A stretch of DNA of 64,000 nucleotides from Cymbomonas tetramitiformis (lineage: Eukaryota > Chlorophyta > Pyramimonadophyceae > Pyramimonadales > Pyramimonadaceae): the NCBI GenBank assembly GCA_001247695.2, contig LGRX02024671.1, forward strand, positions 1 through 64,000. Reading direction: 5' to 3'. Positions 1,628-62,477 of this stretch are shown here, one piece after another; positions within the stretch are counted from its first letter, which is position 1, and each line of letters starts with the position of its first letter. The notes beneath the pieces are model-generated. The model saw only the letters and a list, made by a program, of their open reading frames with translations, had not been told where the DNA came from and searched no databases. The position numbers and the translations under genes are program-made.

Positions 1628-1757
1628 ACAGCTCGTGACATCGGCGGCCGCATCGTGAAGGATGACAGCTCGTGACATCGGCGGCCGCATCGTGAAGGAT
1701 GACAGCTCGTGACATCGGCGGTCATCTCATCGCGTCGATCGCTGACGCAATAAATAC
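1628..1757. promoter_or_regulatory. 37-bp x3 GC-rich array plus TATA-like box before AlkB gene
   Basis: Three units start at 1628, 1665 and 1702. Each contains ACAGCTCGTGACATCGGCGG, and the first two continue into GGCCGCATCGTGAAGG. A TATA-like CAATAAATACC follows at 1748-1757, about 130 bp before the ATG at 1889. The first 29 bp of the next array (3151-3179) are almost the same as one unit here. Confidence 0.65.
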
Positions 1758-1888
1758 CCGAAAACGAGCTTTCCCCCTCACAATTTACAACTTCACTTTT
1801 CTCGAGCCTCCTACTCTACAGCTCTACAACCTCGTACCTATCGTTCATAAAACAAGTTCATTCTCAAGCGCCCGCCCCATTTTTCTCC

Positions 1889-2551
1889 ATGTCTCTCAGT
1901 GATATCTTAAACTCCGACCGCGTCCACCTGACGCCCAACTCCTGGTACATACACGTACCGGGGCACGTGCGTGTGTCGAAGGAGGGATTCGAGCAGCTCT
2001 GGGAACTCAAGCACCGCTTTCAGCAGCAGCACATCGTCCTTTTTGGCAAACGTATACCAGTGCCTCGTATACAAGGTTTGTTCTCGGCGCGCGACGTGTC
2101 CTACAATTTCAGCGGCATCTCGGTGCCCAGTGAACCGATCACCTCGCACGCCATCCTGGAGGCTCTGCTAGAGCAAGTCACCGACACGCACAACGCGGTC
2201 TTTGCCAACTGGTACGCCAGCGGGCAAGATTCCGTGGGCGCACACAGCGACGACGAAAAGGACCTGGTAAAGGGCTCCTGCATCATCAGCATCAGTCTGA
2301 ACGCGACCCGCACTTTTCGGGTGAAAAAAAAACCCAAATGTGATGCATCGAGCGAAGTGGATAAGCTCGATTTTCAGTTGGGGGATGGAGACGTTTTTAT
2401 CATGGGCGGCGCTTTTCAGAAGGAGTTTCTACATGAAGTCCCCAAGAAAGCCCGCATGGTCGGCGACCAGAGGCGCATTAACCTGACCATAAGAAACTTT
2501 GCGCCGACGGGTATAGCGGACAAAAAACGAAAAAGAGAGCAAGCACGCTAA
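1889..2551 (+). CDS. AlkB-like 2-oxoglutarate/Fe(II) oxygenase
   Basis: This 220-residue protein has the AlkB fold signature in order. An NWYASGQDSVGAHSDDE stretch holds the iron ligands His119 and Asp121. A second iron His is at about 182. The 2OG-binding RRINLTIR segment is at about 195-202. Known AlkB proteins remove alkyl groups from DNA or RNA bases by oxidation. The length matches a minimal catalytic domain, and the ISISLNATRTFRV strand is typical of ALKBH2/3-type proteins. The C-terminus (KKRKR) is a likely nuclear localisation signal. The start is the first in-frame ATG after the array and TATA-like box. Its substrate is not visible from sequence. Confidence 0.9.
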   Translation: MSLSDILNSDRVHLTPNSWYIHVPGHVRVSKEGFEQLWELKHRFQQQHIVLFGKRIPVPRIQGLFSARDVSYNFSGISVPSEPITSHAILEALLEQVTDTHNAVFANWYASGQDSVGAHSDDEKDLVKGSCIISISLNATRTFRVKKKPKCDASSEVDKLDFQLGDGDVFIMGGAFQKEFLHEVPKKARMVGDQRRINLTIRNFAPTGIADKKRKREQAR

Positions 2552-3150
2552 GTAGCCAGCTTCACTGTCGAGCTTGTATACCCTTGTTAGGTGTTTGTAG
2601 CTACAATATCTGTATGACACTTCAAAATAGATCGTAAGATTATCAACTTTCCCACCCAAAAACCGTACCACGTCACGTGGCAGGCGACTGTTCTCTCTTA
2701 TACGATGGCCGTATCTTTTCAAGTGGCGAACAATCGCGAACGCTTTTTGCTTACCTTAGCCACTAGAGTGTTTTTGCATTGGGACACTTAAGAAGTGCTT
2801 TTCTATGAGCGTGGGATTCGGGGGAAACGAGATGCACGCTCTTAATACAATTTACGGATTGCCCAGGATATCTTACTAGTAAAATATTAAAAGGTTTACC
2901 GCCAAACCAAGTTTACAGATCCTCCCTCCCTGCAAAAATAGTCTATCAAGGGTTGCTTCCCTTTCGAAACGATCACTTTTAAGAGATCGCCGTATTCTAG
3001 GGGAGGGGGGGGGAAAGGGATCTGGCGATCAATTTCTCATCGAGATCCGACGGTTGTAAATCGACATTGAACGACGATCGTCCGATTATGCACAGGCGCC
3101 CTATGTTTATTCATAAATCCGTATAATTAGTTATTTAATATATTTAGGTC
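2552..3150. other. Intergenic spacer with inverted repeat copy 2
   Basis: No gene is seen. A C/G-rich tract lies at 3000-3015. A copy of the GATCCGACGG...CGTCCGAT inverted repeat is at 3043-3086, followed by an AT-rich stretch leading into the helicase array. Confidence 0.6.
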
Positions 3151-3326
3151 ACAGCTCGTGACACCGGCGGCCGCATCGTCGGCGGTCATCTCATCGGCGG
3201 TCATCTCATCGGCGGCCATCTGGTCGGCGGTCATCTCATCGACGGCCATCTGGTCGGCGGTCATCTCATCGGCGGCGATCTCATCGACAGCCATCTCGTC
3301 GACAGCCATCTCGTCGGCTATAAGAG
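3151..3326. promoter_or_regulatory. 15-bp GC-rich array plus TATA box before helicase gene
   Basis: About ten units of TCATCTCATCGGCGG and close variants follow a 29-bp segment shared with the array before the AlkB gene. The array runs directly into GGCTATAAGAGGC (3317-3326), about 90 bp before the ATG at 3415. The period is 15 bp here against 37 bp in the neighbouring array, while the CGGCGG core is kept. Confidence 0.7.
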
Positions 3327-3414: not shown

Positions 3415-5253
3415 ATGGTTGAACTCAAGACTTACCAGACGCAAGCTGCGAAGGAAGCTGTGAAACGGATAGTGTCCAACAAGAACCAAACGCTGGTGGG
3501 TAAAGTCGGGTCAGGCAAGACCCTGACCTCGCTGGAGACGTGTCGGCGTTTGAGCGAGTCCGGCCAAGGCCTTCGAGACACGCAACACCACCTGCTGACC
3601 CTCGTGGTGGTGCCCAACTGCGTGCTGCACCAGTGGTTCAAAGAGACGCTGCGCTTCGGCGTGAACGAGAACCAACTCTGCCTATTTCACGGGAGCATCA
3701 AGTCGCGGACCAAAGCCTTCCACGCGTGGTGCGGTCGGGCCGGGGCGGTGACGAACATCAGTGGGCGGACCATGTGGATGCTCTTCACCACCTTCGACAC
3801 CTACCGCAGCTCGGCGGCCTTGCTCTCCGGCGTCACCTGGGGGATGGTGATCGTGGACGAGGCGCACCTGTTGCGCAACGGGGTGGCGAAGACGGCCGAC
3901 GAGGAGATCAAGTACGGTCTGAAGAACTACGAGGTCCTGGACAGGACTTTGATGCGGGCGCCCACGCGCTTATGGTCACCGCCCTTCACGCTTCTGGTGA
4001 CCGCCACGGTGGTACTGAACCACCCCATGGATATGCTGAGCCTAGCTCGCTGGTGCAGGATGCCCGACGGTTTGATGGACAAGGCGGACTGGTACAACCA
4101 GCAGGGCGTGTTCAAGCCCGCCCGCAGGCAGTACTGCGAAGACCACGTGACCGTCATCGACGTGCCCGAGCCCCGTCCGGTGGAGCGGTGTGTGCGGCTG
4201 GTGAAGAGGGACGAGAGCGAACGGCTACTGTCGGACTCGGCGTACCAACATCTCGCGGGATGCCTGAAGATCTTCCTCACCGCGATGCGGCAGATGGGCT
4301 CCGCCAACCGGGCGTCCCCGGAGCAGCAGGCGATCCTGCGAGCCGCTCGCCTCCAGTTCTGGGGCGCGGTGACTCGGTGTCGACGGGGAGAGCAGTTCCC
4401 CGGTTTTTTCGTGCAGCCCACGGAGAGCGCGCCCAGGTCCCTCATCGCCTCGGACGTGGACCGGCTGGTGCGCGAGCATCCACTGAAGGAGTGCAATAAG
4501 CTGCGAGCGGTGGTCGACTGGTGTGAGGAGCTGTTGGACGCCGAGAACAACTTCCGCAAGGGCCTCGTGATGTCCGCGTACAAGCAGCCGTTGCAGCTGC
4601 TGGCGGAGCACGTGCGACGTTGCAAGCCGGACGTCGCGGTCTTCGAGCACTACGGCGGTGGCGGAAAAGCCAACGCGGCCATCCTGCGCGAGTTCAGCGC
4701 GGTCTCTTGCGAAGGCCGACGGGCGGCGGTGTTGCTGGCCACTCGCGGCTCCATGGGGGTCGGAGTGGACCTGCCCTGCGTGCAGCGCACCTTCTTGATG
4801 GACCTGGCCTGGTCACGGGGGGACGACCAGCAAGCGCTGGGCCGCATGCAACGACCGCTGGCCCAGAAGGTGCACGAGTGGGTGGCCACCACCGCCAGCT
4901 TGGGTTCGGAAACCTTCTCCGTCGAGGAGTGGATGCGTCTCATCCAGGAGAAGAAGCGCTCCATGGTGGAAGAGATGTTCGCCGGTGTCGACCAGAGCGA
5001 GGACATGGACGAGGAGGAGGACGCGATGCCGGCGGTCGAGGAACCGGTCCAGCAGCCGATGGAGGGGAAGGCGGAGACCTCGAAGCCGATCCTGACGGTG
5101 CTCTTGGAGATGTTGGAGCGCCACGGATTCGTCCAGGCGAGCAGGAAGCGCAAGACCCCGAAGAAGGAGAGAAAAGTGTCCGAGAAACGGCAGAAAGTGA
5201 GCTCAACGGATACGCAGCAGGCACAAGTCTGCGAGACAGTAGGACGTGACTGA
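3415..5253 (+). CDS. SNF2/SF2-type DNA-dependent ATPase (helicase-like)
   Basis: This is a 612-residue superfamily 2 ATPase. Visible motifs: Walker A GKVGSGKT at residues 29-36; motif Ia region LVVVPNCVLHQW; Walker B DEAH at 148-151; motif III TAT in the LLVTATVV strand; motif V-like ATRGSMGVGVDL; and motif VI QALGRMQR at 473-480. Order and spacing fit SNF2-like remodelling or helicase proteins. The C-terminal ~110 residues are acidic, then basic (KRKTPKKERK), and probably disordered with a nuclear signal. Such proteins use ATP to translocate on DNA or remodel protein-DNA complexes, and viral relatives act in transcription. It is intronless and preceded by an array and TATA box. Confidence 0.88.
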   Translation: MVELKTYQTQAAKEAVKRIVSNKNQTLVGKVGSGKTLTSLETCRRLSESGQGLRDTQHHLLTLVVVPNCVLHQWFKETLRFGVNENQLCLFHGSIKSRTKAFHAWCGRAGAVTNISGRTMWMLFTTFDTYRSSAALLSGVTWGMVIVDEAHLLRNGVAKTADEEIKYGLKNYEVLDRTLMRAPTRLWSPPFTLLVTATVVLNHPMDMLSLARWCRMPDGLMDKADWYNQQGVFKPARRQYCEDHVTVIDVPEPRPVERCVRLVKRDESERLLSDSAYQHLAGCLKIFLTAMRQMGSANRASPEQQAILRAARLQFWGAVTRCRRGEQFPGFFVQPTESAPRSLIASDVDRLVREHPLKECNKLRAVVDWCEELLDAENNFRKGLVMSAYKQPLQLLAEHVRRCKPDVAVFEHYGGGGKANAAILREFSAVSCEGRRAAVLLATRGSMGVGVDLPCVQRTFLMDLAWSRGDDQQALGRMQRPLAQKVHEWVATTASLGSETFSVEEWMRLIQEKKRSMVEEMFAGVDQSEDMDEEEDAMPAVEEPVQQPMEGKAETSKPILTVLLEMLERHGFVQASRKRKTPKKERKVSEKRQKVSSTDTQQAQVCETVGRD

Positions 5254-5982
5254 ATGTTGTTAGCCTCGGGAAACCTGCGACGTGTGAACAGAGTAATCGC
5301 TTTATAAAATATAACGTACGTGTTTGCCATGCGCGGGTGTGTCCTGCAGTGACCATGTCTCAGATTGTTTGACTGTGCATCTCGCCTTCGACACATCACT
5401 TCGAAACCCACCCATTTCAACTGCCTTAGACCGTCCGCAAGATCCAGAGAACACACCGGAACCAGTCTAGCATATTCGGGTCGTGTTTCAGTAATACCTC
5501 GTGGCACTTTGTTTGTTCACGCATGACACCGTGAGCCGATTTGAATATTCGATATCCGTTTTGGGGTGGGTGTGCTTTTGAGGTGATGTTAAAAAACTTG
5601 ACGCGATTTTCGGATTCGGGTCGGATTCAAATGGCTCACGCACACATTTAGAGGTGAACAGGCCTAGCAGAGATCTCAACTTTGAAATCGACCAAGCTTG
5701 GCATTTTTTAGGCTTGAACACGTCGGGTTCCTGTTTGTCCTTATAAAGCTGCCCCTCGACCCGCACCATTGCACTCCAGTGTTTTGCTGAAGCATACAAA
5801 ACGGTCCCTCAACGAGCGGAAATAAAGCACACCGATTATTCGATGCACCCTCCCGACTCCCCTATGTGGGCTTTAGTTGGGTACGCACATCACCCCTGAG
5901 CCCCATCAAGAACCCCATACAGGATCCAACGGTCGATAACGATCAAGCGATTATATCCGTCCGATATCTTTAACACTTCCCC
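5254..5982. other. Intergenic spacer
   Basis: No convincing gene is seen on either strand. A looser copy of the GATCCAACGGTC inverted repeat lies at 5923-5967, immediately before the next array. Confidence 0.5.
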
Positions 5983-6139
5983 GGCGACCGTCATCCCCAG
6001 TGCCTGTCATCGCCCAGCGTTCGTCACACCTCCAGCGGCCGTCATCTCCCAGCGGCCGTCATCCCCCAGCGGCCGTCATCCCTCAGCGGCCGTCATCCCC
6101 CTTCGGCGGCCATCCCCCATACCAAGCGTGCATATAACG
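5983..6139. promoter_or_regulatory. 17-bp GC-rich array plus TATA box before RING gene
   Basis: About seven units of CAGCGGCCGTCATCCCC and degenerate flanking copies lead into GTGCATATAACG at 6130-6139. The ATG of the RING/coiled-coil gene follows 80 bp later at 6220. Confidence 0.7.
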
Positions 6140-6219: not shown

Positions 6220-7386
6220 ATGACTCCGGTGTCTCCTGACTCATCCGACTACGAACCTGTCTCGCCCACCCCAGGTCACGGGGGCAACAACAACATACCG
6301 GACGAAGACGAACGCCAACTCGAGAATCGTTTTATTGACGAGACAATTGAATTGGAGGACTACCCTCCCCAACCACATGAGGGCGACCTTTCTGCCTGGT
6401 GCACCGATGCGAGCAAAGCCGCGGCCAGCGCACTGAATGTCCGCTTCAAGGCCCAGTCGGTCTCCCGGGACGTGCATCTCGACCTGGACACGTTGGCATG
6501 GTCACCGCGGTCGTACAAGCCCGTGCCGGAGCTGTCGGGCGAGGTGTTATGTGCGCATGCGAGCACGGAGCTGGAAAAGCGCGTGCAGGAAGTCACGGGC
6601 ATAATCATGGCACGGAATTGGTGCAACATCTGCCAGGATTACCAGGAGAAGGATCAAAAGTTGTATGTGACGTGCGAGCAGCATTTGCCCGTTCAGCATC
6701 TGGTGTGCGAAAGCTGCTTCGACAAGGACAAAACCTCGGTCTGCCCCATGTGCCGAGGTGAGCGTCCGAGACAACGCACGGAGCAGTGCGAGGCGATGCG
6801 ACGCGACTTCTATCGCATCAAATTGCAGTCCTGTCCGCTGTGCACCGACCCCGAGAAGCGGACCGCCGATGAGCTCCTGAAGCACGTGCACACCGAGTGC
6901 GCGGCGATCAAGTCGGAGACGGTCACCGTGGACGTCCGGAGGCTGCGGGCGGAGCTCGCCGCGCAGCGCTCGCGATGCGTCCAGGAGCTCTGCGACTCGC
7001 CCGTCACGGTCGACGTGATGCGGAAGGCCTTCGCCGAGGTGCTGGCGAAGACGGTAGCGGAGTGGTCCTCGCTTCAAATGCCGCACGCTCGGGAGATGAG
7101 ACGCTTGAAGAGGGACGTGGACCAGCTGGATACGTATTCGCAGCTTTCGGATAGGGACCTCAAAGACCGCACCAAGGAGTGCGAGACGCTCAAATCTCTT
7201 GTCAGATATCACCAGGAGACTAATAGGTGCCTGCAGCTCGACTACGACCACGCGCGGAGACAGTTTCGGGAGCAGCGAGAGAATTGCGACCGCTTGCAGC
7301 GGGAGGTGGACGACTTGAGGAGGCAGCGGAGGGTGGGGTCGCACGCGGAGGCTTGGGGGAGGCCCAAGCGGTCCAGACAATGGTAG
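6220..7386 (+). CDS. RING-finger protein with C-terminal coiled coil
   Basis: The protein has 388 residues. The N-terminal ~120 residues are acidic and poorly conserved in type. A C3HC4-like RING spans residues about 135-178 (CNIC ... CESCF ... CPMC). A second small Cys/His group (CPLC ... HVHTEC) follows at about 207-228. The last ~150 residues are rich in Arg, Glu, Gln and Leu with heptad spacing, predicting a coiled coil. This layout is reminiscent of TRAF- or TRIM-like ubiquitin ligases. A role as an E3 ligase is inferred from the RING; the partner is unknown. The start is the ATG 80 bp after the TATA box, with no intron apparent. Confidence 0.82.
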   Translation: MTPVSPDSSDYEPVSPTPGHGGNNNIPDEDERQLENRFIDETIELEDYPPQPHEGDLSAWCTDASKAAASALNVRFKAQSVSRDVHLDLDTLAWSPRSYKPVPELSGEVLCAHASTELEKRVQEVTGIIMARNWCNICQDYQEKDQKLYVTCEQHLPVQHLVCESCFDKDKTSVCPMCRGERPRQRTEQCEAMRRDFYRIKLQSCPLCTDPEKRTADELLKHVHTECAAIKSETVTVDVRRLRAELAAQRSRCVQELCDSPVTVDVMRKAFAEVLAKTVAEWSSLQMPHAREMRRLKRDVDQLDTYSQLSDRDLKDRTKECETLKSLVRYHQETNRCLQLDYDHARRQFREQRENCDRLQREVDDLRRQRRVGSHAEAWGRPKRSRQW

Positions 7387-7920: not shown

Positions 7921-8032
7921 TCGCCGCCGTGCAGAACAGGCCGCCGCCGTGCATAACAGGCCGCCGCCGTGCATAACAGGCCGCCGCCATGCAGAACAGG
8001 CCGCCGTCGGACGTGCGAGTATACGAACGCTC
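7921..8032. promoter_or_regulatory. 20-bp GC-rich array plus TATA-like box before second RING gene
   Basis: Four units of GCATAACAGGCCGCCGCCGT and variants span 7921-8008. A TATA-like GAGTATACGAAC follows near 8023-8034, about 100 bp before the ATG at 8127. An in-frame ATG inside the array (7989) lies upstream of the TATA-like box and was not used as the start. Confidence 0.65.
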
Positions 8033-8126: not shown

Positions 8127-8780
8127 ATGGAAATCTGCTGCATCTGCCACGAGAGGTGCCCTCCGTCGGAGGTGTCCGTCGTCCTGCCTTGCAGGCACGA
8201 GATGCACCGCGTCTGTTGGCACGACTTCGCGTCGATGCACTGCGCACAGGACCCGCGGTGTCCCGTATGCAGGCAGTTCCCCGCCCACCGGACCATCGTG
8301 CGCTACCCGCCGCACGACGAAGCGTCGAACCTGACGGTGCGCGCTCCCCGCCCTAGGTTCCTCGCAGCGAGTGGGTTCGTTCGGAATCACCCCAATTCTG
8401 ACGGAGGAGGCGGCCGGGCGCTGTCTTCGCAGGATACGTTGGTCCACGCGGCGGGCGGAATGCCCACCTCGGAGACCGACCGCGAGCGTTTGGCGGCACG
8501 CGACGCCTCCGACCGCAGGCACCGAGAGTGCCGCCTGTACCGCGAGCGGATCACTCTCGCCGTGCATGTCGAGAGGGCGGCACGGGCGCGGCAGGGTTGC
8601 GCGGAGCGGGAGGCCTCCGAGAGAGAGACCCATCGCAAGCGCGTGAGCCTGGAGATGAACCCCGCGAACAAGCGGGCGCGGCTCACGGAGCTGGCCGCGA
8701 CCAGAGCGATGCTGCACGAGAGGTACCTGCGCTCGATGACCGGGCTGGACGTTCTGGCGGAGTGTGCGTGCCTGCAGTAG
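8127..8780 (+). CDS. Small RING-finger protein with coiled-coil tail
   Basis: The protein has 217 residues when started at 8127. The frame stays open upstream, but that part reads through the promoter array. A RING-H2-like finger spans residues 4-48 (C4-x2-C7 ... CRHEMHRVC ... CPVC). The rest is rich in Arg, Glu and Ala with helical spacing. It is the smaller companion of the RING/coiled-coil gene at 6220, with the same order of domains. E3 ubiquitin-ligase activity is inferred from the finger only. Confidence 0.78.
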   Translation: MEICCICHERCPPSEVSVVLPCRHEMHRVCWHDFASMHCAQDPRCPVCRQFPAHRTIVRYPPHDEASNLTVRAPRPRFLAASGFVRNHPNSDGGGGRALSSQDTLVHAAGGMPTSETDRERLAARDASDRRHRECRLYRERITLAVHVERAARARQGCAEREASERETHRKRVSLEMNPANKRARLTELAATRAMLHERYLRSMTGLDVLAECACLQ

Positions 8781-9527
8781 ATGCGGCCGGAGGGTTGCGT
8801 CGCTCGGCCGCGATGTTTGTGAGCGGGCTTTTAAGATGAACACGAACACGGTAAAAATTTTAATGTCTTAAATGTGAATTTTGTAATACGCTGCTCGGGG
8901 TTTTCATGTGGTGCAGAGAGAGAGAGAGAGAGACGATTCTCGGTCCCATAGCTATATCTCTGTGGGCAGGGGTCACACGAGTCGCTTAGGATAATTTGCA
9001 TGGTATGGGGCTAAAGATGTGTCGAAATATAATGTTAGAACCGTTATCGATCTTTATCCTATCTCTATGAGATGATGGACCAGCACGAGCGTCATCGCGA
9101 TATTCAAACAAACCGAGCTGAAAGGTTCTATAAGAGTAATCGATAAGGATACAGAACGAAATCAATGTGTTAACATTTGATCATCGATTACGAGGCAGCA
9201 TGCGGTGCAACCCAAACATGGAACGAGACAAGCGATGTTTCAAACATTCGTAATAGGACTTTCTATTGGAAACAATTTACGCCATATGCATATATAATCA
9301 GACACCGCCACACGACACACGAAAAAGCTTTCGAGCGTACGTCTGTTCCAGATTCCGCGACAGCGCGAACACAAGGTATCCATGCCTACGGATTAGGACC
9401 TGCTTCAACCTTCACAACATTCTCTCCTTGCAACGGTTCCTGCTTCAAAGCGTTCTCTCCTTCCAGCGGTGCCTGCTTCACCAGTGTCTCTCGGACGGTC
9501 TCGCCCTCTTCGGAACGAGCAAAGCAC
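8781..9527. other. Intergenic spacer with GA microsatellite
   Basis: A (GA)n tract lies at about 8919-8934. Otherwise AT-rich unique sequence with no supported gene. Open frames at its right end run into the next array and are repeat artefacts. Confidence 0.5.
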
Positions 9528-9743
9528 GCCGACCATCTCCTCGCCCGGCGGCCATCTCCACGCCCGGCGGCCATCTCCACGCACGGCGGCCATCTCCACG
9601 CCCGGCGGCCATCTCCACGCACGGCGGCCATCTCCACGCACGGCGGCCATCTCCACGCAGGACTCCACGCACGGCGGCCATCTCCACGCACGGCGGCCAT
9701 CTCCACGCAGGACGGCGGTGACCGACCACAACCGCATAAAAGC
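9528..9743. promoter_or_regulatory. 18-bp GC-rich array plus TATA box
   Basis: About ten units of GGCGGCCATCTCCACGCA/CC span 9528-9718. They end 15 bp before GCATAAAAGC (9734-9743), and the ATG follows at 9787. The 18-bp period keeps several frames open on both strands; these are not genes. Confidence 0.7.
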
Positions 9744-11669: not shown

Positions 11670-12052
11670 TCGGTATGACATCCGAGGCGGATGCCAACGT
11701 CGCGCGCATGGATCGACCGCCGCCGGGACGACGCGCGGACCGATCGTCCTTCGGTATGACGCGCGGACCGATCGCCCTTCGATATGACGCGCGGACCGAT
11801 CGCTCTTCGATATGACGCGCGAGCCGACCGCCGTTCGGTATGACGCGCGAGCGGACCGCCGTTCGGTATGACGCGCGAGCGGACCGCCGTTCGGTATGAC
11901 GCGCGAGCGGACCGCCGTTCGGTATGACGCGCGGGCCGACCGCCGTTCGGTATGACACCCAAGGTGGACGCCGCCGTCGCGCGCACGGGTCGACCGCCGG
12001 CGGTGCAGCGTCACATCGGCGGCCGATGCCGCGCCCCATCTCTATAAAAAGG
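11670..12052. promoter_or_regulatory. 28-bp array flanked by ~57-bp repeats, with TATA box, before SPFH gene
   Basis: Units of GCGCGGACCGATCGCCCTTC followed by GATATGAC repeat at exactly 28 bp for about eight copies. The array is bracketed by two diverged ~57-bp direct repeats at about 11672-11727 and 11950-12006. A strong TCTATAAAAAGG lies at 12041-12052, 94 bp before the ATG at 12146. Confidence 0.7.
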
Positions 12053-12145: not shown

Positions 12146-13082
12146 ATGAAGGCTCACCTGTTCATCATCACGGCGTTTTTGCCGTGCGGGCTTTCGTTGA
12201 ACATGTTCCATCAAGTGCAGGAAGGGCACGTGGGCGTGTACTTTCGAGGAGGACGTCTGTTGGACACCGTCGTCGGACCCGGAATCCACCTCCACCTGCC
12301 TTACATTACGGAAATGGTCGATGTCAACGTCCGTCTGCAGACGGACATCATCCCCAACGTGCCGTGCGGCACGAAGGACGGCATACTGTCCCAGTTTGAA
12401 CGAGTGGAGGTGGTGAACACGCTGAGCCAAGCACAGGCGCACACCGTGGTCAAGGCGTACGGAGTGGACTACGACCGAGTCTGGATCCACGACAAGGTGC
12501 ATCACGAGATCAACCAGTTCTGCTCCAACAAGACGCTCCGAGAGGTGTACGTGGACGACTTCGCCTCCCTGGACGAACTGCTCAAGCTCGCTTTGCAGAA
12601 GGATCTGGACGCGCACGTCAACGGAGTATCTATCATGGCGGTCCGCATGACCAAACCGACCGTGCCAGCCTCCATTCGAGGCAACTACGAGGCCATGGAG
12701 GAGCAGCGCACGGCGGCCCTGGTCGCACAGCGGACGCACGAGGTGGTGGAGCAAGAGCTGGAGACGGAGCGAGCGAAGACCGTGTCCGCGGCGAATCGAC
12801 GGGCGGAGGAGATCCACATCCAGACCGAAACGGAGGCGCAGCAGAAGCGCACGCAGGCAGACCAAGGCCTACGAGGACAAGCTGGCGGCGGAGTCCAAGC
12901 GGTACGCCGTGGAACAGGAGGCGACGGCGAACGAGGCGCTCCTGACGGACGCTTACCTCCGCCTCCAGGAAACGCGGGTGTGGGAGCAGAACACGAAAGC
13001 CTATTTCGGAGAGAGCATCCCAAGGCTCATGATCGATGCGGTGCAACCTGTGGATCCGGCCTCCGTGCGAGTCACGGTTTGA
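12146..13082 (+). CDS. Erlin-like SPFH/band-7 membrane protein, interrupted by a frameshift
   Basis: The frame starts with a hydrophobic N-terminus (about residues 3-17), a signal anchor. An SPFH domain follows, with EGHVGVYFRGG, GPGIHLHLP, LQTD, NVPCGT, VEVVN, IHHEIN and LALQKDL. This order is diagnostic of erlins, the ER lipid-raft proteins that scaffold ER-associated degradation in eukaryotes. After about residue 238 the matching frame changes: the erlin-like tail, including YFGESIP, continues in the +1 frame from about 12861 to the stop at 13080-13082. A one-base insertion near 12850-12861, a sequencing error or a real inactivation could explain it; programmed frameshifting is possible but no slippery site is obvious. 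Transfer from a host is likely. Confidence 0.8.
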
Positions 13083-13725
13083 GTTGCGGACAGTTTTGTC
13101 GAAGACGCCTTTGTTGTGCGAAAGCTAGAACATGCACGTTTGTTTAGAGATCGAAATCAAACCTTTTAGAACGTTTATCATTAAGAAACATTTTTATAAA
13201 ATTGTCAAATCACGAACGAGGAGTTGTACTCCATACTGTCCGTGGGGCAAGGCTCGGCGTTGCACAAATTGGCATGTGTAATCAACCTACTAGCGCAAGA
13301 GAGCGACCTTCCTCTTGTACTGGTATTCGTTTGCTGCATCTGTGCGTTATTTCAACTAAATCCAGAGGCAGAGTACGAAAGGTTTCTTAAAATATGCAAC
13401 ATGATGCGTAAAATAATTCATAAAACAATGGCAATGGCTCTACAGGAGATGGATGAATCGATTTTTCGTACAATGACGAATCGTCTATTGGCACGGCACT
13501 CGCCAATCAATCAAGTAAAGATACGCCGGTGCCTGAGTAGACCGTTCGCATCCCACCTTCTCGCAGAACCCCTGTCCCTCTAAAGTAAGTGGGCTTACAC
13601 GTCTCCCTACAAATCCCAAGCGGATAAGCGCCGTACGAGTCGCAGATTACTGTTCCGAGCATCCAGCGTTATACGTTTAGCGAATGTATCGCAGACACAA
13701 AACGGAACTCAAGTCGGATTGCATC
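13083..13725. other. Intergenic spacer with an undefined open frame
   Basis: A frame open at about 13224-13583 on the plus strand encodes plausible helical protein (LNPEAEYERFLKICNM) but has no upstream ATG. It may be a decayed gene or an exon. It weakly resembles the broken frame at 14540-14935. Nothing else is seen. Confidence 0.3.
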
Positions 13726-14178
13726 TTAATCCCGGGAATTTAAATCGGGAATCTCGAGACCGGGAATAGTATATCCATTTAGTTTAGTTCCCCAATACGC
13801 CTGATCACGTTGACTTTGATACACTACGACCTTGAGTGCGGGATAATAAACAACAGTAATCAGCGTTGGGTTTATTCGGGAAACGGAGACGGAATCTAGG
13901 AGGATATACCCGAAATAATTGAATTCGGGATCCACCGAACTCTTGGTGATACGAATTGTTTTCCCTGGCACCAATACGAGTTTCTCGTACACTGGTGCTG
14001 TATGACCTGCAACATACGGTTGCACAACGGCAGCTATTTTCGATTCGCGTAGAAATGATGCTTGCGTGATTATATTCGTATGAACTTCAGTTGTTCTCGT
14101 ATCATCACGTAGCTGGCCGCTTATATCATCGACTAACTTGACGGTTTGGGTATTGTCGTGCGGCTCGGACAAGGACAT
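13726..14178 (-). CDS. Unknown protein, paralogue of the gene at 59006-59479
   Basis: This 150-residue protein shares its last ~90 residues with the protein at 59006-59479: LVLVPGKTIRIT, SVDP, NYFGYI, VSVS.IN, VVYQ and the end LEIPDLNSR(D/N). The pattern alternates hydrophobic and polar residues, suggesting a beta-rich fold. I do not recognise the family. A minus-strand TATA (GTATAAATAC) sits at about 14247-14256, some 70 bp before the ATG at 14178, and no GC-rich array is present. Conservation of both copies across 46 kb argues that the gene is functional. Confidence 0.7.
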   Translation of the reverse strand: MSLSEPHDNTQTVKLVDDISGQLRDDTRTTEVHTNIITQASFLRESKIAAVVQPYVAGHTAPVYEKLVLVPGKTIRITKSSVDPEFNYFGYILLDSVSVSRINPTLITVVYYPALKVVVYQSQRDQAYWGTKLNGYTIPGLEIPDLNSRD

Positions 14179-22047: not shown

Positions 22048-22180
22048 GAGCCACTTTCGGTAGGGCGATGACAGGGGATGCTAGTGGTCACGTCTACAAT
22101 TTGAATCGAGGCCGGCTTGTATACAGACACGCATACATACATATATATATATATATATTGCACGCTGAATACCTTAATTA

Positions 22181-44999: not shown

Positions 45000-45058
45000 G
45001 ATCGAAGCGGCGGCCGCCGTCGTCGGTCACCGCCGCGATCTCGCGATCGCTTAAAAGG
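45000..45058. promoter_or_regulatory. Degenerate GC-rich repeats plus TATA-like box before FHA-RING gene
   Basis: CGGCGGCCGCCGTCGTCGG and CACCGCCGCGATC precede GCTTAAAAGG (about 45050-45059), 50-60 bp before the ATG at 45109. Confidence 0.5.
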
Positions 45059-49980: not shown

Positions 49981-50469
49981 TCAGTACCACAGAGGCGACG
50001 GCAGGCCCACGAATTCTCCGCCGGCGATCCCCACTTTATAGTCGGTGGTCGTGCTGGCGCGATCGGTCGTGCAGTCTATCAATATCTCGTACATCTGCAG
50101 GCTCATTCGGATGGTTCGTAAGGCCTCCACGCTCGGCAGTCGGACACACAGCTCCTCCACTGCTCGCAGCACTTCACGAAAGCATCGCACGCCGGCCATG
50201 CTGTCCGCTTGCACAACCGGTCGCAAGGCCCTGATGTTGTGATGAAGGCCCTTTTTCCACGCGGTCGAGGCCCCGGTTGTGGCGGAGGTCACCTCGGCAC
50301 CCTGCGCGGAACGGCTCTCGTCGAGACTCGGCTCCATCGCGCCGAAGATGAGACCGTAGGAGTGCGTGTCACAGATTATAGAGCCCGCGTACACAGCTTG
50401 TATGAACTGCGTGCACAACCTCTCGGCGTGCCCGAAGTGGTCGTCCGCGATCACCTCGTCGATGTACAT
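49981..50469 (-). CDS. 162-residue unknown protein
   Basis: The protein begins MYIDEVIADDHFGHAERLC and is mainly helical, with ICDTHSYGLIFGAMEPSLDE and a helical FREVLRAVEELCVRLPSVEALR segment. The minus-strand box GAGCTTAAAACTC is at about 50528-50540, about 65 bp upstream, and short GC-rich repeats (GGTCGGCGGCGACG, GAGCGGCGGCCGCCG) lie at 50551-50596. No family recognised. Confidence 0.65.
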   Translation of the reverse strand: MYIDEVIADDHFGHAERLCTQFIQAVYAGSIICDTHSYGLIFGAMEPSLDESRSAQGAEVTSATTGASTAWKKGLHHNIRALRPVVQADSMAGVRCFREVLRAVEELCVRLPSVEALRTIRMSLQMYEILIDCTTDRASTTTDYKVGIAGGEFVGLPSPLWY

Positions 50470-50524: not shown

Positions 50525-50600
50525 CGAGAGTTTTAAGCTCCTACCTTTCGTGGTCGGCGGCGACGTCGGAGCCCGCTGAGCGGCGGCCGCCGTTCTTCGA
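50525..50600 (-). promoter_or_regulatory. Short GC-rich repeats and TATA-like box
   Basis: GGCGGCGACGTCGG and GCGGCGGCCGCCG lie just upstream of TTAAAA on the minus strand, between two co-directional minus genes. Confidence 0.45.
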
Positions 50601-51830: not shown

Positions 51831-51837
51831 AAGCGTC

Positions 51838-52006
51838 GCACGGCGGCCGCCACGCACGGCGGCCGCCGTGTCGTTCCTCGCACGCGCGGCCGCCGTGTCG
51901 TTCCCCGCACGCGCGGCCGCCGTGTCGTTCCCCGCACGCGCGGCCGCCGTGTCGTTCCCCGCACGCGCGGCCGCCGTCGTGCGACGCTTCGCTCGATACA
52001 TATCCT
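51838..52006. promoter_or_regulatory. 26-bp array plus TATA-like box, possibly bidirectional
   Basis: Five units of GCACGCGCGGCCGCCGTGTC plus GTTCCC span 51838-51982. GATACATATCC at about 51996-52006 leads to the ATG at 52079. On the other side lies the broken minus gene. Confidence 0.65.
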
Positions 52007-52078: not shown

Positions 52079-52810
52079 ATGAGCTCTTTCCGTCCGCATC
52101 TTCGTTACAAGCTCGCGTGCCTTCAAGAGTTTCGTGTACATCAGGAGGCCGAAGAGCTCCTGATGTCGGATCACGAGCTCGCGCTGCGCCGGAGCGTGGT
52201 AGCGGACGACGCGGAGGCGGTGCGAGCGCATATGCGGACCCACGGGACGCTTCGCCTCTCGCGGGACAACCTGGAGCACGCGGTGCGGCGTGGAAGCGTT
52301 CGGACCTTGGAAATGTACGTGACGGAGTTCGACAAGGAGTTCGCATTCGACGACCCATCGGACGTGTGCCACTTCATCGACGTCGCCATCGAGAACGACC
52401 AACTCCCCGCGCTCCGGTGGGGAATGCGCCGGTTCGTGCGAAAACACCCGAACGGAACGGACGGGACCCACTACGCGGCGGTGCTGGCCGCGCGCGCGGG
52501 ATCCACCGAGACGCTTCGTTGGATGCTCACCGGGGAGCGCAGCGACCTCTTCCATCACGCCTTCCCCGAGTTCTGCCTGCTCGACGAGGCGGCGAGGTGC
52601 ACGCAATTCGGGACGCTCCGCTACCTGCTCGAGACGGGCGCTCCCGGGGTGCGCTGCCGGGAGAGTCGCGAGAACCTGCTGTGGACTCTCGAAGAGACGT
52701 ACGACCGGGAAGACCTAGAGTCTGTTACGTGCTCGGTGAAGGGGCACTTCTCTCGGTACGAGATCGCGTACGAGACCTTGGATGACGTTCCGAAAAAGGA
52801 GTTTAAGTGA
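52079..52810 (+). CDS. Ankyrin-like repeat protein
   Basis: The protein has 243 residues from the ATG at 52079; the longer open frame upstream runs through the array. Helix-loop-helix repeats of about 30-35 residues are visible (DNLEHAVRRGSVRTLEMYV, DVAIENDQLPALRWGM, AVLAARAGSTETLRWML, DEAARCTQFGTLRYLLETG). These fit degenerate ankyrin repeats without the Cys-rich GC.WD style of 20606 and 40230. A protein-binding role is inferred. The last ~40 residues are unrelated and charged. Confidence 0.68.
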   Translation: MSSFRPHLRYKLACLQEFRVHQEAEELLMSDHELALRRSVVADDAEAVRAHMRTHGTLRLSRDNLEHAVRRGSVRTLEMYVTEFDKEFAFDDPSDVCHFIDVAIENDQLPALRWGMRRFVRKHPNGTDGTHYAAVLAARAGSTETLRWMLTGERSDLFHHAFPEFCLLDEAARCTQFGTLRYLLETGAPGVRCRESRENLLWTLEETYDREDLESVTCSVKGHFSRYEIAYETLDDVPKKEFK

Positions 52811-53594: not shown

Positions 53595-54164
53595 CTTGTG
53601 AAAGATCACAAACCGCCCAAAACATGGGCGCAAAGCGTGTTGTACATTTCGATGGCGAATACCCGTCGAATCGCGCGTTCGAACGTGACGGTGACGGAAA
53701 AGTCCGACAACGGAGGAGAAGTTTCGTCGCCGTCGTCAAGGCGGTGGCGTTGATTTTGCGTCCGGGGTGCCCAGTTTGGGGTGGCCGAGCACGTCCTTTT
53801 CCAATTGGGTCGCCTTCCATTTCGTGTACACTTCTCTCGCCGTGTGTGTTGTGCCATGTTCATCGTTGTATATATCCATGAGAGGATTATTTACTCGCAC
53901 CTCCTCCCCCTTATTTAGAACCGTCGTGTATTCAAGAATGTCTTCTTCGTTGTATTCGATGTGACCGATCATGCATCGCCACCTGTTCGAGACAGCCAAC
54001 GACTCAGACACCGATGAGAAAAAAGTAATGAGCGGCGCAATGCGATTCTTCATTCACGAAAGACTAAAGTCCGCGATGCGCGTGTCGAAATACGACTTTA
54101 AAGCGCGGCATCCGCTGATGAAAGAACACGGAGTCGAAACGCTTGAGCTCTCCGCGAAAAAAAC
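53595..54164. other. Region with two overlapping weak ORFs
   Basis: A minus frame at 53736-54053 (ATG at 54053 or 53972) reads naturally (IGHIEYNEEDILEYTTVLNK, then DEHGTTHTAREVYTKWKA). A plus frame from the ATG at 53624 starts MGAKRVVHFDGEYPSNRAF and another plus frame is at 53971-54183. Only one strand can be mainly coding at 53736-53880, and I cannot decide which; the minus frame looks the better of the three. Confidence 0.3.
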
Positions 54165-55457
54165 TCACCCGACGACGTCGTAGGCGGGCGAAGTTTCCAC
54201 GTCGACGACTTTCGCTTGCTCTACCCATAACTTGTACGCTGGAATTAGATTCTGGTAAAGCGGCCCATGGCTTTCTTCATCGTATGACCCGTCGTCTATT
54301 CCTAAGAGTGCAGATCTCGTTTCCGGATCACATTCAGTGTCTGTAGGAATAGATTCTGTCCACGCTTTCACCCAGTTCATTGCCTTTCCAGACACGTAGA
54401 AAGCTGGTTCCAAATTCAAAACCAACTTGCATACCATCAAGATGAATCTGTATCCCCTTTTGAATCCCATCTCTTCCGCATCGTAGTGTTCACGGAGGCG
54501 AACAACTTCGGGACCAGTTGTGCGCAATCGCTTTTCGTAGGTATCGATCACCGCATCCAAAGCCTCTATGTCATCATCTCCAACTGTATTTTCAAACCGT
54601 GCATATACCATATCGTACATATTCTTTTCAGATATGTCATCCGGTTCATCCCTCCAAAAACTTTTGGCTAGTCTGAAAGCCGTATCCACGTTAGCCCCCA
54701 TCTTCACACCGAATCTCCACTCGACCAGCTGCGCGGTGTGAAGTCCAGCTTCTGCAGCGCGCCCGATCAGATTTCGAAAGCCTATGGTCAAAATATGTTC
54801 GGTAAAGCGATGCTTTGCCGCGTCGGAATCCGCGCCCAGGAACAGATCCTCGAAATCCGTTTGCTTGAATCTTTGGGTGATACCCGAGCAACTAAATTTG
54901 AAAGCGCCCATTCCTCTTGCCGGATCGATCACGATCCTCTTATCCGCATACACAAAAAGGTCTTCGAACGTACCCTTTCGCACGTTGGTGGTGCCGTAAT
55001 CACCCAAGCTGTAGTAGGTGTAATCGTTATTGTTCAACATCGCTTTTAGCTGGCGTTTTTTAAATGTTATCTGTCGCTTATCTTCATTGTATTTTTCGAC
55101 GATAGGACCTATTTGCAAAACTTTCACGTTTGCATATCGCTCGACGACAGGGGCGACCCTGTTGCCTTCTAACTTCAGCGTAGAATCATCGTCAAAGTAC
55201 AAAAATTCTACATTCTTCGGAAATACGAAGTTTTTCCCGTACATACGTTTGTACTTTTCGATCGTTGTCAAACCCACCAGTACGAGGAAATACTTGTTGT
55301 CGGGATGCGCTTTCGCGTGAGCGATGATTTCTAGGAGAGCGAACTCGTCATCGCACTCTTCTCCCGCGTCGGCTATGCCCATAATCGTGAGTGCCGCACC
55401 ATGCTTGCGCTTCGTCCCCATGTACATATTTCCGCTCTCGTATACTGCGAAGCTCAT
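54165..55457 (-). CDS. 430-residue protein, possible nucleoside-hydrolase fold
   Basis: The N-terminal part reads AALTIMGIADAGEECDDEFALLE, which recalls the DxxxxxDDxxAL calcium/ribose motif at the start of nucleoside hydrolases. It is followed by KYFLVLVGLTTIEKY and the repeated strand/helix pattern of a Rossmann-like fold. Later IDPARGMGAFKF and long helices follow. The similarity is restricted to the first motif, so the fold is a guess and the enzyme assignment is weak. A minus-strand GATATAAATACG box at about 55516-55528 lies 60-70 bp before the ATG at 55457. No array. AT-richer than its neighbours. Confidence 0.6.
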   Translation of the reverse strand: MSFAVYESGNMYMGTKRKHGAALTIMGIADAGEECDDEFALLEIIAHAKAHPDNKYFLVLVGLTTIEKYKRMYGKNFVFPKNVEFLYFDDDSTLKLEGNRVAPVVERYANVKVLQIGPIVEKYNEDKRQITFKKRQLKAMLNNNDYTYYSLGDYGTTNVRKGTFEDLFVYADKRIVIDPARGMGAFKFSCSGITQRFKQTDFEDLFLGADSDAAKHRFTEHILTIGFRNLIGRAAEAGLHTAQLVEWRFGVKMGANVDTAFRLAKSFWRDEPDDISEKNMYDMVYARFENTVGDDDIEALDAVIDTYEKRLRTTGPEVVRLREHYDAEEMGFKRGYRFILMVCKLVLNLEPAFYVSGKAMNWVKAWTESIPTDTECDPETRSALLGIDDGSYDEESHGPLYQNLIPAYKLWVEQAKVVDVETSPAYDVVG

Positions 55458-56010
55458 GGCGACAACTTGTGGAGAGGTAGCTAGGAAAAGTGCGCTCTTT
55501 TTTCTCGAAAGTGATGCGCGTATTTATATCCTTGAGATATCTGTTGCACATAAAGGTCCATCGAGGATGCATCGATAAGAGGATGATATCCACTACTCGT
55601 GTAAACCACTGAAATATCCTAGTTCACCAGATGTCACAAACTGCCGAACTGCGTGGATAAACTCATAAGATGAACAAACCCTAAGCTGGATATAACCGGA
55701 ACGGTCTCGGGCGGTTTCGGAGTCTGGCCTACGTATGACACAGCGTGTGTCGCAGCACGAACCTGTATATCAGTCAGCAGTCCGGTGTTGGCCTAGGAGT
55801 CTGTCATGGGAGCCTGCATCGGGGCTCCCGGTCAGGGCTGCCCATAGATTTCAGCACAATCTAGTAATCGTGTTGAGAGAGAGAGAGAGGTTTCCCCGGT
55901 CCAACATTTAAAGTGTCAATTTTTGCAAAATTAAATCAAATTTACCGCTACTGCCGGTGTGACAGCGGCATCGATCCTCTAAAATGTTCCTCGGTTCTGT
56001 AAGCGCTGGG
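55458..56010. other. Intergenic spacer
   Basis: Holds the minus promoter near 55520, a GGGAGCC TGCATCG GGGCTCCC hairpin at 55809-55830 and a (GA)n tract at about 55874-55889. No gene supported. Confidence 0.5.
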
Positions 56011-57085: not shown

Positions 57086-57530
57086 TTATGTACAAAATGA
57101 GATTCCGCGTTTCGAGGCGGCCGACACGACCAGGTCGGCGGCCGCCGAGTCGGATCGACAGCCGTCGAATCGGATCGACAGCCGCCGAATCGGATCGACA
57201 GCCGCCGAATCGGATCGACAGCCGCCGAATCGGATCGGCAGCCGCCGAATCGGATCGACAGCCGCCGAGTCGGATCGACAGCCGCCGAGTCGGATCGACG
57301 GACACGGGGTCATCGGCGGCCGTCGAATCGGATCGACAGCCGTCGAATCGGATCGACGGACACGGGGTCATCGACAGCCGCCGAATCGGATCGACGGACA
57401 CGGGGTCATCGGCGGCCGCCAGCGCGCTTCGCACAAATGCTAGAAGGACACGAGGGTGGAGGCGGGAAGCTCGTTTGCGCGTACGATCGAACAACGACGC
57501 AATTTGCGCATGTTCGTTATTTCCTTATAC
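57086..57530. promoter_or_regulatory. 20-bp bidirectional array between divergent genes
   Basis: About thirteen units of GCCGCCGAATCGGATCGACA and variants span 57133-57425, with a GGACACGGGGTCATCG insert recurring three times in the right half. Minus-strand box near 57090 faces the gene at 56985; TTATACATACACG near 57520-57533 faces the gene at 57606. Confidence 0.65.
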
Positions 57531-59005: not shown

Positions 59006-59479
59006 ATGCTCTCACGTGACCCCTCTGACAGCCATGTAAAGGCACCGCTCGCCGTGACACATCGAGCAACCCGTGTCTCCAAAAAACACAACGCGTACAT
59101 TCACGATATCACAGAACGATACCGTTTTATTCGTCTAAAGCTCGTCGGTCGCGCCTGTTTAGTCATAGCTGCCGGTGAAAATTTTGTGTCGCCGTATGTT
59201 GATAACTATGCACCACTGTTAGATAACCTCGTATTGGTGCCAGGGAAAACAATTCGTATCACCAATACTTCGGTGGATCCCGTTTCCAATTATTTCGGGT
59301 ATATCATAGGTATGGTCTCCGTCTCCCAAATAAACCTAACGTCGATTACTATTGTCTATTTTCCCGCACTCGAGGTCGTAGTGTATCAAAGGAGACTTGA
59401 TGAGATGTATCGGGGAACCAAACAAAATAATTATAATATTCCCAATCTCGAGATTCCCGATTTAAATTCTCGGAATTAG
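59006..59479 (+). CDS. Unknown protein, paralogue of 13726-14178
   Basis: The protein has 157 residues. The C-terminal ~90 match the minus gene at 13726: NLVLVPGKTIRITNTSVDP, NYFGYI, VSVSQIN, IVYFPALEVVVYQ and LEIPDLNSRN. The N-terminal halves differ. No TATA-like box is evident in the short space after the preceding gene. Conservation between copies supports coding use. The domain is not recognised. Confidence 0.7.
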   Translation: MLSRDPSDSHVKAPLAVTHRATRVSKKHNAYIHDITERYRFIRLKLVGRACLVIAAGENFVSPYVDNYAPLLDNLVLVPGKTIRITNTSVDPVSNYFGYIIGMVSVSQINLTSITIVYFPALEVVVYQRRLDEMYRGTKQNNYNIPNLEIPDLNSRN

Positions 59480-61143: not shown

Positions 61144-61337
61144 AGTGGAAGGACCGATGCGCGTGACGAAAGGACGGCGGCCGCCGACCCGACACAACGA
61201 CGAGGGGCAGCGGCGGTCGATCCTCCTCGTGATCGGCGGCAGTGGTCATCGCGGCGATGTTCACCTTCGACCGATTGTCGATTCGCCTCTCTCTCTCTCT
61301 CTTCCGTGCACCTGCTCGAGTCGAACTCGAGAGGTCC
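61144..61337. other. Convergent 3' spacer, GC-rich
   Basis: Contains GGACGGCGGCCGCCGACC and a CT microsatellite at about 61284-61302 but no tandem array. It is the only CGGCGGCC-rich stretch lying 3' of both neighbours. Confidence 0.5.
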
Positions 61338-62143
61338 TCACGCGATCGCTTTGATCGCGATGGTGACCACGTCTTCCAGGGCTGTCGTGCGGCCGTTGTC
61401 GTCGCTCGATGACGAGCCGGAATCGGAGTCGGAGTCGAACGTGTCTTCCTGCGGAGCGCGCGCGGAGGCGATTGGGAGGGAGGCTTGGATGCGGGCCGCG
61501 AGCTCCGCCATGCCCCGAGTCGTCCACTCCCTCGCGACGGGACGGTGAAGCGTTTTTTCGCCAGGCGGCGCGCCGCCGTACATCGGGAGCATGTTCGTGT
61601 CGACGAGCGCGGCGCCGAGTGCGGTCTCCGATCCGAGTTTCGCACGGAATCGAAGCCGCGCGCCGCTTGTGGAGTTGCGACGGTTTCGAATCTGCAAAAA
61701 CGAAAGGAATCAGCGACCGGTAGCCGATGACGAACGATCCGCGAGCGGATGTAAACGAAGCCAGGTTTTACCTTAAAGACGCCTCCCGAGGCATGATCGA
61801 CGCACCCTCCGACACGAAAAGCTGCTCGAGAGCTCGTTACGGCATCCGACATCGAGCGTTTTCTATTTTCCACGCCGCGAAGACACCGCTCGCAAAGGTG
61901 GTACGGCGCTCCATGCTCATTCGTATTCATGGTTTTGCACCTAACGCGACCGCACCCCGTGTTACGGCAGGCGTCCACGTCACAGTCGCGATTCTTCCTG
62001 AAACAGTAACTGCACACGAGGTTGCGCCAAATATGGAGCTCGGTCAATGTCGCGTTCGCCTCGTAAGGAACGTGCAGGTTTGTGCACAAATCGTGCTGCT
62101 TTACGCAGTCGTAGCAAACGTGAGTTCCCGTGAGGCAAGACAT
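61338..62143 (-). CDS. Two-exon Cys-rich protein with Ser/Asp-rich tail
   Basis: The exons on the minus strand are 62143-61772 and 61691-61338 (241 residues), separated by an 80-bp intron that begins GTAAAACC and ends CGTTTTTGCAG. Both splice ends are on codon boundaries. Exon 1 starts MSCLTGTHVCYDCVKQHDLC and has about 14 Cys with CxxC pairs (CSYC, CDVDAC, CERC), forming several zinc sites. Exon 2 ends with a Ser/Asp-rich stretch (DSDSDSGSSSSDD) and a hydrophobic helix. A minus-strand GATTAAAG box at about 62197-62204 lies 55 bp upstream. The function is unknown; the Cys pattern suggests a protein-binding zinc domain. Confidence 0.78.
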
Positions 62144-62196
62144 ACCTTTTTTAGGCTGCTCGAATTGAAAATGCCGCCTTTCTTCTGTTTACACCC

Positions 62197-62477
62197 GCTT
62201 TAATCGATGAAAGCCGTCGAAGGTGGCGGTCACGGTGTATCGGCCGCCGAAGGTGACGGTCACGATGTGTCGGCCGCCGAACGTGACGGTCACGGTGTAT
62301 CGGCCGCCGAAGGTGACGGTCACGATGTGTCGGCCGCCGAACGTGACGGTCACGGTGTATCGGCCGCCGAAGGTGACGGTCACGGTGCGTCGGCCGCCGA
62401 AGGTGACGGTCACGGTGCGTCGGCCGCCGAAGGTGACGGTCGCGGTGCGTCGGCCGCCGTCGATGCACCATAAAAGT
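62197..62477. promoter_or_regulatory. 30-bp x8 bidirectional array between divergent genes
   Basis: Eight units of GGTGACGGTCACGGTGTATC plus GGCCGCCGAA span 62219-62459. Neighbouring units alternate GATGTGT and GGTGTAT, giving a 60-bp higher-order period in the left half. GATTAAAG (minus) and CACCATAAAAGTCC (about 62467-62480, plus) flank it. Confidence 0.75.

Follow-up and report, generated by a model that had tools for sequence, protein, structure and literature searches.

Seventeen GC-rich tandem arrays, each with its own unit length and spacer sequence, lie upstream of TATA-like boxes in a large repeated element of the marine green alga Cymbomonas tetramitiformis, and a single ten-base core, CGGCCGCCGW, runs through nearly all of them. 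We consider these arrays to be, probably, upstream activating sequences, that is, multimerised sites for one regulator that were amplified separately at each promoter. The stretch of DNA under study, referred to from this point on as the window, comprises positions 1-64000 of contig C15959 (167,356 bp) in the C. tetramitiformis assembly (852 Mb, 25,745 contigs), and its sequence identifies the alga as its source.

Arrays were found with Tandem Repeats Finder (TRF), whose rows, at a score of at least 50, were merged into loci. The window contains 33 such loci: 15 are noncoding and bear at least two cores, one bears cores within coding sequence, and 17 are coreless. Each of the 15 core-bearing noncoding arrays precedes a TATA-like box that is oriented with the gene. 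This is the pattern expected of multimerised-site promoters, with tandem copies of one word close upstream of the box, and, for the window, it supports the first-pass placement of arrays at promoters rather than in or after genes. The core-bearing coding locus (41331-41776) has two cores and falls within ankyrin coding sequence. Five of the coreless loci are also in coding sequence, and another, AT-rich with a 24-bp unit, is at 1187-1442, farther out on the 5' side of gene 1889. Two short arrays below the TRF threshold, at 31875-31908 (19-bp unit) and from 40058 on (47-bp unit), bring the total to 17, in agreement with the roughly seventeen promoter arrays first claimed. The private unit lengths are 13, 15, 16+27, 17, 17, 19, 19, 20, 20, 23, 27/30, 28, 29, 30, 37, 47 and 103 bp; most of the lengths in the first-pass annotation are borne out, but 18 and 26 bp were not found as such. 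The placement of arrays 5-60 bp before the box likewise stands for the majority, with 13 of the 15 TRF arrays ending 0-53 bp away, and fails for two: array 11714 has its box 86 bp away, with single cores between, and array 57141 has one 105 bp away on the plus side and 50 bp away on the minus-strand side. For the short arrays, the distance is 29 bp at 31875 and a few base pairs at 40058. Dinucleotide shuffles of the window (n=10) gave at most one TRF row each, with a best score of 54, versus 36 rows scoring at least 140 in the real sequence. GC content of the array units ranges from 0.63 to 0.82, and the core is CpG-rich. Exact CGGCCGCCGW occurs 58 times, with 54 occurrences in the 7.3 kb upstream of boxes, two in 32 kb of coding sequence and two in the other 24.6 kb, as counted over zones drawn by hand.

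Alignment of 17 unit consensi, in either orientation, gives C15 G13 G16 C17 C17 G17 C17 C16 G17 W15, with sharp edges and degenerate flanks, letters that are partly built in because a GC-rich template guided the alignment; the final W (15 of 17) was absent from that template. Thirteen TRF arrays contribute one unit apiece to the aligned set (the 27-bp one alone in the case of 51837), 22851 contributes its 103-bp and 17-bp units, 25286 its 13-bp unit and the short array 31875 its own, with 40058 left out. Spacers around the core are unrelated between arrays. CGGCSG is present in 17 of 17 units versus a shuffle mean of 2.0, a comparison that is descriptive only, since the units were picked for GC-richness and cores. 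The earlier description of a shared core with private spacers and periods is supported, within the limit that no exact GCCGCC is present in the unit consensus of either 5979 or 11714. A second word, ATGAC/GTCAT, occurs in seven of the 17 units (shuffle mean, 0.37) and is not common to all. A YY1-like reading of GGCGGCCATCT fits arrays 3165 and 9524 only and was dropped.

Core, TATA-like box and initiator follow a single layout. Promoters were placed by hand in 23 cases. In all but one of these, the start of the last core is 15-48 bp ahead of the TATA-like box; the exception is gene 57606, with a distance of 111 bp. The word YTCAYW follows the box at 22-38 bp, mostly 28-30, in 19 of the 23, compared with a background of 6.4% at shifted upstream positions. 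An initiator word thus follows the TATA-like box above chance, as at RNA polymerase II promoters, the starts themselves being predicted. Because the boxes were hand-placed, a blind scan of the whole window was run under a fixed rule (core, TATA-like box, then YTCAYW 25-31 bp on). This returned 19 sites versus a shuffle mean of 2.4 (maximum 9), and 15 sites versus 0.3 (maximum 1) when at least two cores were required; four altered words gave 4, 2, 0 and 2 sites. Eighteen of the 19 blind-scan sites fall at 16 hand-placed promoters. Five arrays lie between divergent genes (20230, 22851, 25286, 28077 and 57141). The initiator word was looked for on four of their minus-strand sides and is present on each; the fifth (25136), a near-identical duplicate of the 22700 side, was left out of the count. 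The promoters of 45109 and 50469(-) have the identical layout with dispersed cores and no array, which implies that the site, not its repetition, defines the class. Of 37 starts examined, 24 belong to this core class, seven to a TATAAATACRC-like class and six to neither.

The assembly holds at least four further copies of the element (on contigs C16801, C23002, C501 and C781). Window stretches are collinear on the first three, at an identity of 86-99.9%, mostly at least 93%, while on C781 the flanks of arrays from the window's first 26 kb recur for nine of the 11 arrays tried. Comparison across these copies, and between duplicates within the window, supports the first-pass claim of independent amplification. 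For instance, the flanks at 21950-23052 and 24400-25488 are 93% identical to the end of a 103-bp array, and past these 103-bp arrays (22851 and 25286) come 17-bp units in one case versus 13-bp units in the other, followed by different genes. Similarly, 1513-1688 and 3036-3190 have their flank and first core in common and then continue as 37-bp versus 15-bp units. Paralogous genes 28355/31121/56011 (WHEH motif), 16070/27298 (CDITLH motif) and 20606/40230 (ankyrin) have unrelated units within each group. Between element copies, the 15 TRF arrays allow 60 comparisons, and in 36 of these both 150-bp flanks were matched at 85% or more over at least 100 bp, a filter that removed 3165 on C781 (153 vs 232 bp). 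Array length differs in 24 of these 36, versus 56 of 672 control segments (Fisher p 2.8e-16, only indicative since the copies share history). To illustrate, the array at 35696 has about 12.9, 7.9, 4 and 4 units in four element copies, and at 51837 the 27-bp unit is found in the window only, the three other copies having a 46-bp, 16-bp-type repeat. GCCGCC is kept in 33 of the 36 orthologous arrays, and the three exceptions are all at 11714.

On the plus strand, the array at 1628-1721 (37-bp unit, 2.5 copies) precedes a TATA-like box at 1749 and gene 1889-2551, a 2OG-Fe(II) oxygenase. At 3165-3318, a 15-bp unit (15/30/45) leads to a box at 3318 and, with no initiator word, to the SNF2-type helicase gene 3415-5253. 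RING genes follow the next two, namely 5979-6119 (17-bp unit; box 6131, initiator 6159; gene 6220-7386) and 7922-8006 (20-bp unit; box 8019, initiator 8048; gene 8127-8780, a weak RING match). The array at 9524-9713 has a 19-bp unit with 31/50-bp higher-order copies (box 9735, initiator 9763; gene 9787), that at 11714-11956 has a 28-bp unit with a degenerate core (box 12042; SPFH/Band 7 gene at about 12146-13147), and that at 15751-15906 has a 23/69-bp unit with the core in both orientations (box 15959, initiator 15991; gene at about 16070-17452). Four arrays between divergent genes come next: 20230-20369 (17-bp unit, 8.2 copies), between genes at about 20117(-) and 20606(+), with boxes at 20206(-) and 20382(+) and the initiator word on both sides; 22851-23084 (103-bp unit, two copies, plus 17-bp unit, 2.4 copies), between about 22700(-) and 23207(+); 25286-25534 (103-bp unit, two copies, plus 13-bp unit, 4.5 copies), between about 25136(-) and 25699(+), its left flank duplicating that of 22851; and 28077-28233 (27/30/57-bp unit), between about 27940(-) and 28355(+). 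The short minus-strand array at 31875-31908 has about 1.8 copies (box 31846(-), initiator 31817(-); gene 31121-31744(-)). At 35696-36068, a 29-bp unit in 12.9 copies precedes a box at 36075 and gene 36187-37443, which lacks an initiator word; directly upstream of it lies a 295-bp unit in 4.8 copies (33882-35314), which aligns also in C16801, C23002 and C501. The second short array, at 40058-40150, consists of one unit and a partial second copy (box 40154, initiator 40182; ankyrin gene 40230-42011). The two array-free promoters with dispersed cores are at 45008-45030(+) (box 45050, initiator 45079; FHA gene 45109-46200) and 50555-50592(-) (box 50537(-), initiator 50509(-); open reading frame (ORF) 49981-50469(-)). 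The last three arrays are at 51837-51977(+) (16-bp, then 27-bp unit in 4.7 copies; box 51995; gene 52079-52810; no initiator word), at 57141-57420 (20-bp unit; divergent genes at about 56980(-) and 57606(+), the plus side without initiator word) and at 62213-62459(+) (30-bp unit, 8.2 copies; box 62469, initiator 62499; gene from 62578 to beyond the window).

The second class of promoters is array-free, AT-rich and TATAAATAC-like. Gene 54165-55457(-) has the box ATATAAATACGC at 55518-55529 on the minus strand, with no cores and no YTCAYW, and more or less similar boxes occur at 51033(-), 49447(-), 30713(-), 14256(-), 37787(+) and 38977(+). The initiator word is found in none of the seven, and a single GCCGCC occurs among them within 300 bp upstream. 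As read from the sequence, the box of gene 54165 is kept in two relatives with about 56-58% protein identity. Its protein is identical over 430 residues to CYMTET_37039, which continues in an annotated exon at 53739-54053(-), so that at least one intron is annotated. This conserved protein has relatives in other sequence sources and an N-terminal DAGEECDDE motif reminiscent of nucleoside hydrolases. It has a weak (27%) relative on the heliorhodopsin contig C253, its structure prediction is poor (predicted local distance difference test score, 53), and a sequence search of the PDB returned no match for its family.

A search of all 852 Mb with a strict composite of the core-class layout returned 30 matches in the GGCCGCCG orientation and six in the CGGCGGCC orientation, versus none for both reversed controls; this total of 36 is an undercount, since the strict composite matches just two of the window's own promoters. 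Fourteen matches are on element contigs (three of them, C23903, C3596 and C20663, assigned solely by identity of the matched sequence), 18 are in one other repeat and four are elsewhere. The other repeat, one copy of which is at C1736:31001-36000, has at least 18 near-identical copies of a promoter in which a single core, the TATA-like box and the initiator follow one another as in the window; three long ORFs in it have no Pfam match. Triple-core arrays alone gave 623 matches genome-wide versus 284 for the reversed control. Among the matches listed, C1364, C2185 and C2618 have core+W arrays (27-bp GGCCGCCGTCATCGATGCGTGACGGGT and 14-bp units) and may represent further parts of the element or its relatives. 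The 38.7 kb of other-copy contigs that do not align to the window contain three core-bearing array stretches, all on C501 and all abutting TATA-like boxes. Arrays with 16-bp and 29-bp units each have a full composite, and a degenerate GGCGGTC-rich array at C501:29901-30200, with no initiator word, lies between the divergent boxes CATAAAAGG (minus) and TATAAAAAGG (plus). When two cores are required, composites outside the window number two versus a shuffle mean of 0.18 (maximum 2). In a distant relative of the element (L155:3705-3944 and L156:6828-7115), TTACGCAACA-type arrays with 25/48-bp units are upstream of a homologue of gene 54165. Relatives were also sought in IMG/VR, which yielded one distant AT-rich contig whose TRF rows include no GC-rich core arrays. 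A triple-core scan of the same database gave at least 160 matches in at least 120 stretches, of which the 25 lowest in GC include none resembling a relative, and a core-core-TATAAA pattern gave six stretches, none resembling a relative by eye. One of the six, from a contig with 60% GC, carries on its minus strand a short 28-bp array whose CGGCGGCC cores directly precede TATAAA; the contig looks unrelated, and its array is probably a coincidence. The genome contig collection returned a single distant contig, with 39% GC and the core absent, and the phage collection returned no match for two proteins.

As to the element itself, Pfam recognises SNF2-type helicase, RING, FHA, ankyrin, SPFH/Band 7 and 2OG-oxygenase proteins, with most of the 49 window ORFs scanned having no match. 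The portion of PMC10675990 drawn on here reports an NCLDV (nucleocytoplasmic large DNA virus), Polinton-like viruses and mirusvirus-like heliorhodopsin elements in the genome of this alga. The element is likely an endogenous large virus, to judge from its being repeated, large and gene-dense. The first-pass attribution to a large DNA virus is plausible, but the contig belongs to a green-algal assembly, no capsid family turned up among the 49 ORFs in a general Pfam scan (including the NCLDV double jelly-roll capsid, PF04451), and heliorhodopsin, with 60 matches genome-wide, has none on C15959, C16801, C23002, C501 and C781, contigs that may be partial. An identity as a CHeCME (Cymbomonas heliorhodopsin element, a putative mirusvirus relative) was considered and rejected, since a defining feature was not found on these five contigs, though one gene has the weak relative on C253. 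An interspersed double hairpin occurs six times in the window (18065(-), 23883, 33286, 46419, 49510 and 53187). It consists of an A-rich run, CGCCCGTCGGGCG and then, in most copies, a GGCCC...GGGCC stem; the chance expectation for the first stem is 0.25. Three copies are 200-380 bp 3' of genes 23207, 45109 and 52079, and no Rfam family matches. Two ORFs, 13726-14178(-) and 59006-59479(+), are paralogous, with 66% identity over 99 residues.

If the arrays are activating sequences, the ten-base CGGCCGCCGW, repeated exactly or nearly so in each, would be the putative binding site of one regulator, and RNA polymerase II would start at the predicted initiator downstream of the TATA-like box. Slippage or unequal exchange would duplicate a segment around a pre-existing single site, and such duplication would give each gene a private spacer and period with the site kept, and would also explain the higher-order copies and the changes in copy number. 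A protein would bind the core, more copies may give more output, and the class may mark a time of expression, such as early. Plant GCC-box promoters are bound by AP2/ERF factors. Because that box includes GCCGCC and AP2 genes are present in the host (31 AP2-domain matches, at least 23 of them above the cut-off and none located on the five element contigs), AP2-domain proteins are candidate binders; a viral protein or one from a different family could bind just as well. That array number might set output is suggested by analogy with other systems, in those parts of PMC3899988 and PMC6116278 considered here. We offer more tentatively, as a scenario that is possible and falls short of probable, the fuller picture of a large endogenous virus that, gene by gene, amplifies one host-factor site anew and so equips each gene with a private, fast-changing array as its dosage dial, with the array-free TATAAATACRC-like class serving another expression phase; such a promoter class would be undescribed.

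Several observations weigh against a regulatory role for the arrays. The chief doubt is that core and spacer show no significant difference in diversity inside arrays: deviating letters number 32 of 592 in the core versus 99 of 1270 in the spacer (p 0.065, with one array misregistered), although homogenisation would also produce this. None of the three orthologues compared for array 11714 has a GCCGCC, and the two short arrays are equal in length in five of five comparisons made outside the set of 36. The layout itself is imperfect, as the initiator word is absent from four of the 23 hand-placed promoters, the blind scan misses seven of them, and six of the 37 starts fit neither class. Nor are the two classes cleanly separated, with the box of array gene 1889 (AATAAATACCC) resembling the second class and second-class gene 49329(-) having a near-miss initiator, GTCACA. 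Beyond the window, 18 of the 36 genome matches are the one other high-copy repeat, which has a single core and no array in the one copy fetched. Some of the triple-core matches listed on other contigs look coding or unrelated, so that an array by itself, with no TATA and initiator, is not element-specific. Composites outside the window number two versus a shuffle mean of 1.4 (maximum 5) when a single core suffices, and no such promoters were found in 20 kb around relatives of one gene (56-58% identity) or in 10 kb of C253. Finally, the portion of PMC10675990 cited above reports that viral elements in this alga are for the most part transcriptionally silent.

Much of this could also be accommodated if the arrays were non-functional minisatellites, arising in slippage- or R-loop-prone GC-rich promoter DNA and spread by drift, with the core being merely the slippage-prone G+C-rich part. 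The frequent length differences (24 of 36), the homogeneous units with higher-order copies, the lack of significant core conservation within arrays and the 11714 orthologues without GCCGCC are all in keeping with such an origin. We nevertheless think it unlikely, as the ten-base core is nearly invariant between arrays whose spacers differ, 33 of 36 orthologous arrays keep the site, array-free promoters with the same TATA and initiator still have cores in the same place, and the TATA promoters of the other class are almost coreless. A role of the arrays as recombination seeds, that is, as breakpoints at a core hotspot that shuffle promoters and genes within or between element copies, is quite improbable. 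Two duplicated flanks do keep their identity as far as an array and then lead to different genes, and many of the long alignments of one element copy with another are interrupted at arrays, but length change alone predicts such breaks, both 150-bp flanks are found together in the other copy in 36 of 60 cases (the rest were not, in part because the fetched stretches did not extend that far), and the TATA/initiator spacing is left unexplained. About as improbable is a purely structural role, in which the CpG density of the arrays would keep nucleosomes or methylation away from promoters, or the arrays would serve as origins or packaging sites, with no sequence-specific factor involved. The high GC content and CpG-rich core would suit this, yet any GC-rich repeat would then do, whereas one ten-base word recurs, and the sites are many and gene-linked, unlike origins.

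Upstream activating arrays of the kind we favour have partial parallels. The plant GCC box resembles the window core in presenting GCCGCC in either orientation, although the window word, as a putative site, is longer (CGGCCGCCGW). Baculovirus homologous regions, few and scattered and made of one repeat family, are likewise repeated enhancer-like elements in a large DNA virus, but are not known to form a private array per gene. SV40 has 21-bp GC-box repeats. Like the window arrays, these repeats and those of the human cytomegalovirus (HCMV) major immediate-early enhancer are short and upstream of a core promoter; each of them binds a cellular factor, as the window repeats may do, but theirs is one locus with several factors and repeat kinds, whereas the window has one core in 17 arrays with gene-specific units and spacers. 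The HCMV enhancer has 18-, 19- and 21-bp repeats (PMC6116278, in the part cited). Tandem repeats in yeast and human promoters change quickly in number and can alter the number of binding sites, as described in the relevant part of PMC3899988; those are separate repeats at separate genes, whereas the window's are nearly all around one word in one layout. Distinct motif classes upstream of genes are also known from NCLDVs, whose promoters are A/T-rich in the sections of PMC5294985 used here, a paper in which the term 'GC-rich' is absent and 'tandem' occurs once; the array class does not fit that known type, with its AT-rich motif and no GC arrays. A class of gene-by-gene private arrays was not found described in the titles and abstract openings listed by searches of open-licence literature or in those sections of the same NCLDV promoter review. 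Multimerised sites and unstable promoter repeats are already known, and what appears new is the occurrence of private arrays gene by gene across a large element. The earlier statement that no such promoter class is known in large DNA viruses accordingly holds for this extent and not for the principle, since tandem-site promoters are known at single large-DNA-virus loci such as the HCMV enhancer (PMC6116278, same part).

If this reading is correct, the element would provide a case of promoter evolution by parallel amplification, in which one site at many genes acquired a unit of its own at each, in several near-identical element copies, so that the birth, growth, replacement and decay of arrays would be directly countable. 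The arrays would amount to natural constructs, ready for relating binding-site number to output. In addition, they would be the mark of a promoter class for elements making use of the host nucleus, and would supply a sequence tag by which such elements may be found.

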